NCBI RefSeq assembly: GCF_000153105.1
Contig: NZ_CH672377.1
Span: 696,767-760,766 of the forward strand
Reading direction: 5' to 3'
DNA from: Blastopirellula marina DSM 3645
GTDB lineage: Bacteria > Planctomycetota > Planctomycetia > Pirellulales > Pirellulaceae
DNA length: 64,000 bases
Program-made: the position numbers and the translations under genes
Part shown: piece after piece, positions 30,587 through 34,396 of the stretch
Position numbering within the stretch: the first letter of the stretch is position 1
Layout: each line of letters opens with the position of its first letter
The notes under the pieces: generated by a model
What the model was told of the DNA's origin: nothing
Databases searched by the model: none
What the model saw: the letters and a program-made list of their open reading frames with translations, nothing else

Positions 30587-31702
30587 ATGAAACGTCGTCT
30601 CTTTCTAAAGGCGTGCGCCATCGCCGCTTCGGCCGCAGTCGGATGCAGTTCTCAGTCGAACCCCGCGGGCACTTCGGGGGGAGCGGTCAAGAACGAATTT
30701 CCCCTGACTAACGGCAAATACACGATTCTCGACCTGCGCTCCGACAGCGGAAATCATGACCGGGCCAAACAAAATGCTGAAGCTGCGATCTCGAAATATC
30801 CAAATTTAAACTGCATGGTCGGCCTTTACGCCTACAATCCCCCTACAATTTTGCGGGCCGTCGAAAATGCCGGAAAGCAGAACGACATCAAAATCGTCGG
30901 CTTTGACGAGGACATTGAGACGCTGAAAGGGATCGAAGCCGGCAAGATTTTCGGCACCGTTGTGCAACAGCCATTTTTGTTCGGCTTCAAATCGGTCGAA
31001 TATCTTTCGGCATTGGTTCGGGGTCAAAAGGTCGATGTGCCTGAGAGCGAAATCCTCTATATCCCACATCGGGTGATTCGTCCCGCCGACGCCGCCCAGT
31101 TCAAATCCGATATCGAGCAGATGATGGCCGGCGACGGCAAAGCTCCCGCCAGCGCACGGGACGACTACGACACCAGCGAGCCGGTGAGCCTGGCGTTTTT
31201 GACCAATACGGTCGATCCGTTTTGGACCCTGGCCGAACGCGGCGTGCAATGCGCCGAGCCGATCTTTAACGCTTCGTGCGACGTCTATCATCCGCCGACC
31301 GCCAGCGCCGAAGAGCAAAAGCGTTTTATCGAGCGAAAATTGAATGACGATTGTCAAGGTCTCGCACTGTCGCCGATTGACAAAGAGAATCAGGGGAACC
31401 TGATCAATCGCGCCTGCGAAAAGATGAAGGTCATTTGTCACGACAGCGACGCTCCCGATACGAATCGCTTGTTCTATATTGGAACCGGCAACTATCTGGC
31501 GGGGCGCGCCGTCGGCAAACTGGTGAAAGAAGCGATCCCCGACGGCGGCGAAGTCGCGATCTTTGTCGGCAAGCTTGAGCAACTGAACGCCCAAGAGCGC
31601 AGCCAAGGGGTCATCGACGAACTGCTCGACAAGCCGATCCCCCCGCAATACGCCGCCGGAGCCGAAGCCGCCGCTTCGGCGGCCGAGTCGGCGCCACAGT
31701 AA
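30587..31702 (+). CDS. Sugar-binding lipoprotein of an ABC importer with halves in permuted order
   Basis: A 371-residue lipoprotein with a twin-arginine-like signal (KRRLFLKA) and lipobox ending at Cys20. It belongs to the ribose/xylose-type periplasmic binding proteins (Peripla_BP_4), but its halves are exchanged. Residues ~43-180 (YTILDLRSD..., CMVGLYAYNPP, IVGFDED, GTVVQQP, IPHRVIRP) match the C-terminal half of RbsB-like proteins. Residues ~198-350 (VSLAFLTNTVDPFW, LALSPIDKENQ, DSDAPDTNRLFYIGTGNY, AIFVGKLEQLNAQERSQGVIDEL) match the N-terminal half. A 17-residue Gly/Ala/Asp linker joins them, and an Ala-rich tail ends the protein. The frame is continuous with no stop at the joint. The operon partners downstream are a fused ATPase and a permease, so a transport role is expected. 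Confidence 0.85.
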   Translation: MKRRLFLKACAIAASAAVGCSSQSNPAGTSGGAVKNEFPLTNGKYTILDLRSDSGNHDRAKQNAEAAISKYPNLNCMVGLYAYNPPTILRAVENAGKQNDIKIVGFDEDIETLKGIEAGKIFGTVVQQPFLFGFKSVEYLSALVRGQKVDVPESEILYIPHRVIRPADAAQFKSDIEQMMAGDGKAPASARDDYDTSEPVSLAFLTNTVDPFWTLAERGVQCAEPIFNASCDVYHPPTASAEEQKRFIERKLNDDCQGLALSPIDKENQGNLINRACEKMKVICHDSDAPDTNRLFYIGTGNYLAGRAVGKLVKEAIPDGGEVAIFVGKLEQLNAQERSQGVIDELLDKPIPPQYAAGAEAAASAAESAPQ

Positions 31703-31744: not shown

Positions 31745-33244
31745 GTGCCGCTGCTTGAAGTCTGCCATGTCTCGAAACGTTTTCCCGGCGTCCAGGCGCT
31801 CCAAGATGTCAGCCTGTCGATCGCCCCTGGCCAATCGATCGCGGTGATCGGCGAGAACGGCGCCGGCAAAAGCACGTTGATGAAGATCTTGGCCGGGATT
31901 CAAACCCCCGACGAAGGCGAAATCCGCATCGATGGTCGCGCGGTGGAGATTCGCACCGTCCGCGACGCCGAGAAACAAGGAATCGCGCTGATTCACCAAG
32001 AGTTGAATCTGTGCGACAACCTAGATGTCGCGGCGAATATTTTTCTGGGCAAAGAACCGCGGAGCTGCGGCTTTTTGCGCCGTCGCGAAATGGATCGCCG
32101 CGCTGCGGAAGTCTTGCAACAAGTAGGGCTCGATATCCAGCCGACAACCTCTTTGGCGTCGCTCTCGATCGGGCGACGACAATTGGTCGAGATCGCCAAG
32201 GCGCTAGCGTCCGACGCTCAGGTGCTGATCATGGACGAACCGACTTCTAGTCTCTCGACCGGCGAAGTCGAAAATCTCTTTCGCGTGATCCACACGCTGC
32301 GGCAGCGCGGCGTCAGTATCGTCTATATCTCGCACCGCTTAAGCGAAATTCATCATGTCGCCGACCGCGTCGTAGCGCTGCGTGATGGGAGAAACTCAGG
32401 CGAGCTGGAACGGGACGAGATCACGCATGAACAAATGGTTCGCCTAATGGTGGGCCGCGATCTGGATCAATTTTTCCCGCATGTGCCGCACTCCGCTGGC
32501 GAAGTCGTGCTATCGGCCCAGGGAGTTCGCGTCCGTGGGAAGGCCGCTTTTCCGCTTGATCTAGAGCTAAAAGCCGGCGAGATCGTCGGTCTGGCGGGTC
32601 TGGTTGGCGCCGGCCGAACGGAACTGCTGGAAACGCTGTTTGGCGTTCGCCGCAGCGCCGGAGGATCGGTCGAAGTCGCCGGCAAGCGGATTCGCTTGCG
32701 AAGTCCCCGCGACGCGATCGCCGCTGGACTGTTCCTCATTCCCGAAGACCGAAAACAAGACGGCTTGGTGATTGAGATGACGGTCGGCGAGAACATCACG
32801 TTGCCAGGTTTGATGCGGGCCTCCACCGCCGGCATCTTGCCTACTCGCTGGGAGAAATCGACCGCCGACGCAATGATCCAAAAGTTGCGGATCAAGACGC
32901 CGGGCCCGGGGCAAATTATTCAGTTCCTCTCAGGGGGCAACCAACAAAAAGCGGTGATCGCCAAATGGTTAGCAATGGGCCCCCAGGTGCTGCTGCTCGA
33001 CGAACCGACGCGCGGCATTGATATTGGCGCGAAGCACGAGATTTATGAGATGATGGAGACGCTCGCGCATCAAGGAGTCGCGATTCTCTTCGCTTCCAGT
33101 GAAATGGAAGAAGTGATCGGCATGTCCGACCGGACGTTGGTCATGCACGAAGGACGGATCGCCGGCCAACTCGAGCGCGGGCAACTGAGCGAACAGGCGA
33201 TCATGCGACTAGCGACCGGCGCAGCGAGCGCAGCGACAACATAG
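31745..33244 (+). CDS. Sugar ABC transporter ATPase (two fused domains)
   Basis: A 499-residue RbsA/MglA-type ATPase with two nucleotide-binding domains. Domain 1 has Walker A G-E-N-G-A-G-K-S-T near 37-45, signature LSIGRRQ near 138 and Walker B VLIMDEPT near 160. Domain 2 has a degenerate Walker A (GLVGAGRTE, near 286), LSGGNQQ near 397 and LLLDEPTRGID near 417. The degeneracy in the second Walker A is normal in this family. Translation begins at GTG (31745) with GAAAGG upstream. It follows the binding-protein gene by 42 bases and precedes the permease by 30. Confidence 0.93.
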   Translation: MPLLEVCHVSKRFPGVQALQDVSLSIAPGQSIAVIGENGAGKSTLMKILAGIQTPDEGEIRIDGRAVEIRTVRDAEKQGIALIHQELNLCDNLDVAANIFLGKEPRSCGFLRRREMDRRAAEVLQQVGLDIQPTTSLASLSIGRRQLVEIAKALASDAQVLIMDEPTSSLSTGEVENLFRVIHTLRQRGVSIVYISHRLSEIHHVADRVVALRDGRNSGELERDEITHEQMVRLMVGRDLDQFFPHVPHSAGEVVLSAQGVRVRGKAAFPLDLELKAGEIVGLAGLVGAGRTELLETLFGVRRSAGGSVEVAGKRIRLRSPRDAIAAGLFLIPEDRKQDGLVIEMTVGENITLPGLMRASTAGILPTRWEKSTADAMIQKLRIKTPGPGQIIQFLSGGNQQKAVIAKWLAMGPQVLLLDEPTRGIDIGAKHEIYEMMETLAHQGVAILFASSEMEEVIGMSDRTLVMHEGRIAGQLERGQLSEQAIMRLATGAASAATT

Positions 33245-33274: not shown

Positions 33275-34396
33275 ATGAATAAAAGTTGGGGAATGCTATT
33301 CTTGCTGGTGCTGATCTGCGTCGTCACGGCGATCTTTCGCCCACGATTTGTGGAACCAGGGAATCTGGCGAACATCATCCGCTGGACGTCGCTTTACGGC
33401 GTCATGGGAATCGGCGTCGCGTTTGTCATCATTACAGGGGGAATCGATCTTTCGATCGGATCGATGCTAGCGCTAGTTGGCAGCTTGTTCGGCGTGCTGA
33501 TGGCGCAGTACAACCTTCCGCCTGCGGCGGCCATCATGATGGTATTGGTAATGTCGACGCTGCTTGGTCTGGTTTACGGTTTGCTCATCACGAAGTTAAA
33601 ACTGCAACCATTTGTCGTCACGCTTTGCGGTCTGCTGATCTTGCGCGGTCTAGCCCGCGCAACGGCCGGCGGCAGTTCGGTTGGCGGCTTTCAGCGTCTC
33701 AGCTATCTGATCAACTACGAATGGGGAAGTATTCCCGTTCCTTTTCTACCTTGGATTAACGAAGGCTATTGGAGCTTCCATAAATGGCTCCCCAGTCGCG
33801 GCGATCAACCGGGACACTTCGCACTGAATGACGCCGGAGAACGAATCTCGCTTGATTGGTACGACTGGGTCCCGCTTCACCCGCCAATCCTTTATTTGGC
33901 GGCGATCGCGATCATCGCGGCGATCTTTTTGAACTGGACCGTGTTCGGACGCCATCTGAAAGCGCTCGGCAAAAACGAACAGGCCGCACGTTATAGCGGC
34001 GTGCGAACCGACACGATGGTGATCATCAGCTATATGATCTGCACCGCGATGGCCGGCGTCGCCGGAGTCTTGTTCTCGATCGACATCGGCAGCGTCATGC
34101 CGAGCACCTTTGGCAATTTTTACGAACTGTATGCGATCGCTGCGGCGGTGCTAGGAGGCTGCAGCTTACGCGGCGGCGAAGGTTCGATCATCGGCGTCGT
34201 CATCGGCACCGCAATTTTGCGGGTACTACAAAACTCGATCGAGATGTGGTCGATCCAAGAGCTGGAGTTCGCCGTGGTCGGCGGCGTTATCTTGATCGGC
34301 GTCATCGCCGACGAAATCGCGCGGAGAATCATCGCCCAACGTCGCGCCAGCCAAGAAGCGGCGCTGCTAGAAAAACAGAACGCGTCCCCATCGTAG
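33275..34396 (+). CDS. Sugar ABC transporter permease (RbsC-like)
   Basis: A 373-residue integral membrane permease of the ribose/xylose branch. Membrane helices fill the N-terminal 130 residues, with the characteristic GGIDLSIGSMLALVG near 50-64 that couples to the ATPase. A polar, tryptophan-rich stretch at about 148-200 (EYGSIP-like YEWGSIPVPFLPWI and LDWYDWVPLHPP) is longer than the loop in RbsC and may be a periplasmic insert. The C-terminal half has the conserved GGCSLRGGEGSIIGVVIG. It is the last gene of the three-gene importer. No sugar-metabolism gene follows. Confidence 0.9.
   Translation: MNKSWGMLFLLVLICVVTAIFRPRFVEPGNLANIIRWTSLYGVMGIGVAFVIITGGIDLSIGSMLALVGSLFGVLMAQYNLPPAAAIMMVLVMSTLLGLVYGLLITKLKLQPFVVTLCGLLILRGLARATAGGSSVGGFQRLSYLINYEWGSIPVPFLPWINEGYWSFHKWLPSRGDQPGHFALNDAGERISLDWYDWVPLHPPILYLAAIAIIAAIFLNWTVFGRHLKALGKNEQAARYSGVRTDTMVIISYMICTAMAGVAGVLFSIDIGSVMPSTFGNFYELYAIAAAVLGGCSLRGGEGSIIGVVIGTAILRVLQNSIEMWSIQELEFAVVGGVILIGVIADEIARRIIAQRRASQEAALLEKQNASPS

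Follow-up and report, generated by a model that had tools for sequence, protein, structure and literature searches.

The open reading frame (ORF) at 30587-31702 on the forward strand of the window (the whole 64,000-nucleotide stretch of Blastopirellula marina DSM 3645 DNA that was analysed) encodes a type I sugar-binding lipoprotein of 371 aa, whose chain by Pfam runs signal, C part, N part. Is this order a real property of the gene, and if so, where was the chain cut, how often has this happened among its relatives, and does the product still serve a transporter? The position of the ORF and its unbroken frame are as the original prediction gave them. So is the placing of the C part ahead of the N part, as the protein matches a sole Pfam family, Peripla_BP_4 (PF13407), in two swapped pieces, an order common to relatives. 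Profile positions 152-258 are matched in the first part of the protein, ahead of positions 6-151 at residues 206-350, so the N-then-C order of the family is not followed. The match scores 162.9 bits against a curated cut-off of 35.1, and the two halves taken singly (65.1 and 102.3 bits) also exceed it. Among the six Peripla_BP_4 matches of the genome, only the two of this gene are swapped halves. A truncated gene or fused neighbouring genes were ruled out by the one unbroken frame and the single copy of each module. Because the chain order is common to relatives, the swap is not chance.

The gene was divided with HMMs of three modules, N, C1 and C2, and the bounds first proposed for the two halves (residues 43-180 and 198-350) agree with them. 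All features given here lie on the forward strand. A lipoprotein signal peptide (30587-30646) carries the lipobox AVGC (Cys20) and an RRLFLK motif. It is followed by a new N-terminal tether (30647-30712), mostly of low confidence in the structure model (pLDDT below 50 at model residues 1-13). The C1 module (30713-30877, aa 43-97), where the Pfam match from profile position 152 lies, is now at the front, and the C2 module (30887-31129, aa 101-181) makes up the rest of the canonical C-terminal half. A new joint (31130-31186, aa 182-200), recognised by sequence and dN/dS, connects the former C terminus to the former N terminus. The N module (31187-31639, aa 201-351), the canonical N-terminal half, now comes last, and an Ala-rich C-terminal tail with the stop codon (31640-31702) was delimited by sequence and by alignment with three relatives of the same genus (G001, G002 and G003). 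We refer to this order, signal-C1-C2-N, as CP1.

The two ends of the chain show some peculiarities of their own. The signal MKRRLFLKACAIAASAAVGC contains a twin-arginine-like RRxFLK motif ahead of the lipobox that is kept in 4/4 genomes of the genus, the three relatives included, and its full form is absent from the other CP1 signals compared. We take this motif to be Tat-like, and the protein may be exported by Tat in the folded state. The Ala-rich tail was found only in the genus of the window among the CP1 tails compared. A long charged C-terminal tail with many PKEEA repeats occurs in another CP1 protein (locus L113, genome G089, genus g62).

An error of assembly or of reading in one genome, named in the original prediction as the main alternative, could produce such a swap. 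No support for it was found. The order is identical in G001, G002 and G003 at 85, 88 and 97% identity (3/3 genomes, the last a single contig), in 42 CP1 members of 16 genera, and in a crystallised relative from Rhodopirellula baltica SH 1, a member of the Planctomycetota, family Pirellulaceae. Together these refute the error, whose probability we consider negligible. The R. baltica protein is a deposited crystal structure (5er3), by its title an ABC transporter solute-binding protein, and has the same permuted order at 47% identity. The title is silent on permutation, and no paper on this structure was found in the literature searched. The window gene is under purifying selection: dN/dS (Nei-Gojobori) is 0.041 for G000/G003, 0.13 for G001/G002 and 0.072 for G000/G002, the three pairs tried. 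In the N module, G000 and G003 differ by no nonsynonymous change in 352 sites at a dS of 0.46. The joint (dN/dS 0.09-0.37), the tail and the signal region are looser than the modules. These results support a circular permutation that is genuine, in frame and maintained by selection.

Comparison with structures shows the same rearrangement. The 5er3 sequence aligns colinearly to the window protein over residues 31-353 (E 3.7e-98), whereas the canonical 2qvc, 3c6q and 2h3h align in two separate stretches each, those of 2qvc in the opposite order. An AF2 model built from the alignment of the 42 CP1 rows has a mean pLDDT of 91.8 and a pTM of 0.88, residues 1-13 and the last block being of low confidence. 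Foldseek places 5er3 first for this model (317 aligned columns, TM 0.80/0.88). Ranks 2-21 hold canonical sugar-binding proteins, aligned over 113-178 columns (TM to query 0.30-0.41), together with the structures of TpMglB-2, a permuted protein of Treponema pallidum, and, at rank 20, an unrelated fold. The three-dimensional fold is predicted to be that of an ordinary two-lobed flytrap.

The cut does not seem to lie where the original prediction had put it, at the linker between the domains. By the order of elements in the model, read with the type I topology, the strands and helices with which the C lobe begins would belong to the N module. The cut would accordingly lie within the C lobe, in a loop between a helix and a strand, and not at an interdomain crossing. 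Canonical proteins have a linker in this loop, for example DPTRFDPPDAEIKE in G009.

The permutation also extends beyond this genome. Four overlapping sets of genomes were searched: 60 relatives (own genome included; at least 56 matched at 0.001), 241 genomes of the family (at least 146 matched at 1e-25), 396 of the order (63 matched at 1e-42) and 392 of the phylum (46 matched at 1e-38). Among the matches listed of the family search, CP1 layouts were seen in at least 39 and CP2-like layouts in at least 7 of 146. Scanning 180 loci with the module HMMs and removing duplicates left 125 proteins: 69 canonical (signal-N-C1-C2), 42 CP1 and 14 with a second cut, CP2 (signal-C2-N-C1), where all CP1 and CP2 cases seen were fetched and the canonical proteins are a sample only. 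One of the canonical members is from a Verrucomicrobiales MAG; its locus (L071) was colinear in the tblastn summary and had been a candidate until the module scan identified it as canonical. A match with stops in G015, considered as an N-C-N remnant, was likewise found to be canonical.

The CP2 cut lies inside the C part, just before the IKIVGFDE strand; examples are G011, G028 and G882, the last a single-contig genome. These proteins keep the N-to-C1 linker and gain a new C2-to-N joint. A CP2 model (pLDDT 91.4, pTM 0.87) aligns with 5er3 over 251 columns and with the canonical 3c6q over 223, partial matches to both as the CP2 order would predict. Genus g23 has all three orders (CP1 in G025; canonical in G068 and G075; CP2 in G066, G074 and G077), which suggests gene exchange besides permutation.

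How many times has the chain been permuted? A binding-protein tree was made with the modules rearranged to canonical order (125 rows, 287 columns); its long branches meet at G580 and G587. By parsimony it contains 6 order changes, which would correspond to up to six permutations. Forcing all 42 CP1 proteins into one clade costs 82 log units and is rejected (p-AU 0.0154), and forcing all 14 CP2 proteins into one costs 22 log units and is not (p-AU 0.222), both on a quick tree that is not the best possible, a constraint joining the main CP1 group with G580 having scored 25 units higher. The ATPase sequence was then added for 73 rows, taken from 85 with an adjacent ATPase after 12 were dropped (11 near-copies and the long-branch G878). 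On these data a single clade of the 14 CP1 proteins costs 127 log units (p-AU 4.6e-5). It is also rejected with G580 left out (97 units, p-AU 1.9e-4), a grouping picked after the tree was seen. A single CP2 clade is again not rejected (p 0.317).

The careful tree gives full support (100/100) to the main CP1 group and to each of two CP2 clades, CP2a and CP2b. G580 pairs there with the canonical G587 (100/96), and G025 with G017, also canonical (94/89); the placement of G103 is weakly supported (46/20). In an ATPase tree of 76 rows, 9 near-copies dropped, the CP1 and CP2 members are scattered among canonical ones, with many open forks. On the trees two CP2 origins look likely, but the AU test does not reject a single one, and the two CP2 clades have the hinge letters RRD in common and similar C-terminal tails, so the second origin is a candidate only. 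G580 was considered as a further CP1 origin and is not counted, as it may join the main CP1 group (p-AU 0.806 and 0.358 when added to it singly).

Two other CP1 proteins, G103 and G025, have the CP1 order in a canonical sequence. For the three modules of G103 the best canonical rows give identities of 79, 75 and 74%, and main CP1 rows no more than 52, 56 and 49%. The 69 canonical rows have by number an advantage over the 39 of main CP1 in such best identities, and the medians point the same way (62, 56 and 56 for canonical vs 48, 41 and 42 for main CP1). For G025 the best values are 76, 77 and 70% canonical vs 52, 57 and 48% main CP1. At 11/11 columns that separate main CP1 from canonical rows, both proteins have the canonical state. 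The ends of G103 are also informative. It ends in FDATRYDAP and its C1 begins LKN-DKYEFLDT, where canonical G571 reads YDNTRYDEPDKVVKN-DKYTILDT through the linker. The two ends of G103 thus seem, by these letters, to be the halves of the canonical N-to-C1 hinge.

These observations bear on a simpler history, in which CP1 had a single origin and was passed on by transfer, and later recombination with canonical genes gave G103 and G025 their canonical-looking modules. Transfer is plausible given the three orders within one genus, and neither protein is rejected when added singly to the main CP1 group (p-AU 0.101 and 0.063 for G103; 0.081 and 0.0975 for G025); a clade of the two together is not rejected either (p-AU 0.301). 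Against this history stand the rejections of CP1 as one clade on either data set, with or without G580, and the fact that all three modules, the ATPases and the ends of G103 indicate canonical parents. CP2 is another cut regardless. We consider a single origin of CP1 unlikely. Instead, at least three permutation events are supported by the rejection of a single CP1 clade, by the two ends of G103 and by the likeness of its modules, and those of G025, to canonical ones. By the sequences these events would comprise at least two CP1 events at the same loop and at least one CP2 event at a second loop. A stronger reading, to which we give somewhat less than even weight, is that this binding protein is a permutation hot spot in one phylum (probably the Planctomycetota), where four to six events have cut the C part at one or other of two loops, one loop serving more than once, and the permuted gene has each time taken over the operon position of the canonical gene.

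What does the permuted protein do? Directly downstream of it are a double-cassette sugar ABC ATPase, AraG/XylG/RbsA-like (31745-33244, two Pfam ABC_tran stretches), and a sugar ABC permease, GguB/RbsC-like (33275-34396, Pfam BPD_transp_2). Both are intact, as was predicted. Binding protein, ATPase and permease thus stand side by side in the window, and we take such a three-gene set to be a CUT2-type sugar ABC transporter. The NCBIfam matches listed of the three proteins, for the ATPase the best 25 of 191, are all below cut-offs, so none is assigned to a named transporter (AraG, XylG, RbsA or RbsB equivalogs). The window ATPase is the only match of its genome at E 1e-80 or better.

The permease contains an inserted loop whose size is very variable, both in the window and at other loci (L031, L032, L033, L045 and L050). 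Its matched span ranges from 288 to 729 aa over 68 genomes. Five fetched permeases had no clear further Pfam domain and one sub-threshold DctQ match. The loop insertion was considered as a correlate of binding-protein order and set aside, as its size does not track order.

In 16 of 20 regions examined, homologous genes for the ATPase and the permease directly follow a binding-protein gene of one of the three orders; the ATPase alone is present in one region and neither gene in three (G030, G014 and G016, all CP1). An ATPase starts within 1.5 kb downstream of 65/69 canonical, 21/42 CP1 and 13/14 CP2 genes, a total of 99/125 when every fetched locus is used (85/125 if each protein is represented by a single locus, which is often short). 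For two of the five canonical and CP2 genes that lack one, the sequence covered fewer than 300 bases downstream. The 21 CP1 genes that lack one, with at least 1.4 kb of downstream sequence each, are 20 genes of five genera (g12, g14, g28, g83 and g89) plus that of G652. The twenty genes of the five genera stand alone (loci L037, L038, L039, L079 and L082 among them).

The absence of a directly downstream ATPase in half of CP1 could suggest that the permuted protein is a stand-alone sugar sensor or chemoreceptor, no transporter subunit at all, which lies beside an operon by chance. However, in the other 21 CP1 genes and in 13/14 CP2 genes the ATPase starts at most 171 bases downstream, the position it has relative to the canonical gene elsewhere. 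Moreover, G030, G195, G184 and G194, whose CP1 genes stand alone, have a distant ATPase-permease pair with no recognised binding protein in about 1.5 kb upstream, so that the operon seems to have been split. We judge a role apart from transport very unlikely. The window protein is most likely the binding partner of the adjacent ATPase and permease.

Taken as a whole, we regard it as highly probable that the CP1 protein is a lipid-anchored sugar-binding partner of the adjacent transporter and that its family has been permuted at least three times. Ten residues (F212, W213, D286, D288, R294, N334, R338, F106, D107 and Q127) are kept in 123/123 rows across all three orders, two distant G059 rows having been left out of the 125. 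These residues would line an unchanged flytrap cleft. The window protein would close on a monosaccharide and pass the sugar to the permease, and from its nearest canonical relatives we would guess a glucose- or xylose-like ligand. The Thermotoga glucose/xylose-binding protein (2h3h, 3c6q and 2qvc) has the same halves at about 30% identity over the Foldseek-aligned half. Unlike the window protein it has them in N-then-C order.

Duplication, fusion and trimming is a standard route to circular permutation in the available text of PMC3320104. In the present family a canonical gene would have undergone tandem duplication and fusion, and a new start and a new stop, both within the N-to-C1 loop, would then have trimmed the product. 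The N-C-N-C route first proposed for the window gene is plausible. Its intermediates were not encountered, as each of the 125 ORFs in the module HMM scan carries N, C1 and C2 once only, and neither a tandem nor a part-trimmed form was seen among them. The same text gives DNA methyltransferases and swaposins as cases of permutation by duplication, with documented intermediates for DNA methyltransferases. The window family differs from the latter, as far as that text describes them, in having the canonical and two permuted orders at one operon position and no intermediates seen.

A permuted type I sugar-binding protein is already known in nature. TpMglB-2 (Tp0684) of Treponema pallidum is described in the accessible portion of PMC4990184 as a naturally permuted type I lipoprotein, its gene clustered with transporter genes, for which glucose binding and a change of shape are reported and the name 'Type Ic / Cluster Bc' is proposed. 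The one permuted topology described in that portion has the cut in the N lobe, with the first three strands moved to the end and a fourth hinge crossing. Both proteins are natural circular permutations of a type I binding protein. In the window family, however, the cuts are at two other places, both in the C part, and the window protein moves the whole N module, not three strands of the N lobe as set out there for TpMglB-2. In agreement with this, Foldseek aligns the TpMglB-2 structures (6bgc, 5jx2 and 6bgd) over 239-259 columns with a TM of only about 0.4 to our model. The window protein is probably akin to TpMglB-2 in its working, as another variant. The same portion of PMC4990184 suggests that membrane tethering may favour the permuted form. 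A lipobox is predicted here in 59/69 canonical, 41/42 CP1 and 13/14 CP2 proteins by a looser pattern (42/69, 23/42 and 10/14 by a stricter one that proved too strict), so tethering does not separate the orders in this family. Engineered permuted halves of ribose-binding protein are reported in the available text of PMC9815098. Among the papers listed from the literature searched, with most subscription journals outside it, this was the one natural precedent (PMC4990184), and none described recurrence or a permuted binding protein from Planctomycetes.

The two permuted forms coexist here with the canonical one, and their operons mostly match. At least three origins are supported, and in G103 the cut hinge is apparently still readable. 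As a rule, a natural circular permutation is a single event of long ago, and its parent form is distant. The family could thus be used to examine which loops tolerate new termini, whether permutants arise by duplication and trimming, and whether binding is altered by permutation. Annotation is affected as well, as such proteins are reported by Pfam as two pieces. If the hot-spot reading is true, chain order would be nearly neutral for a lipid-anchored flytrap, and evolution would have repeated the experiment.
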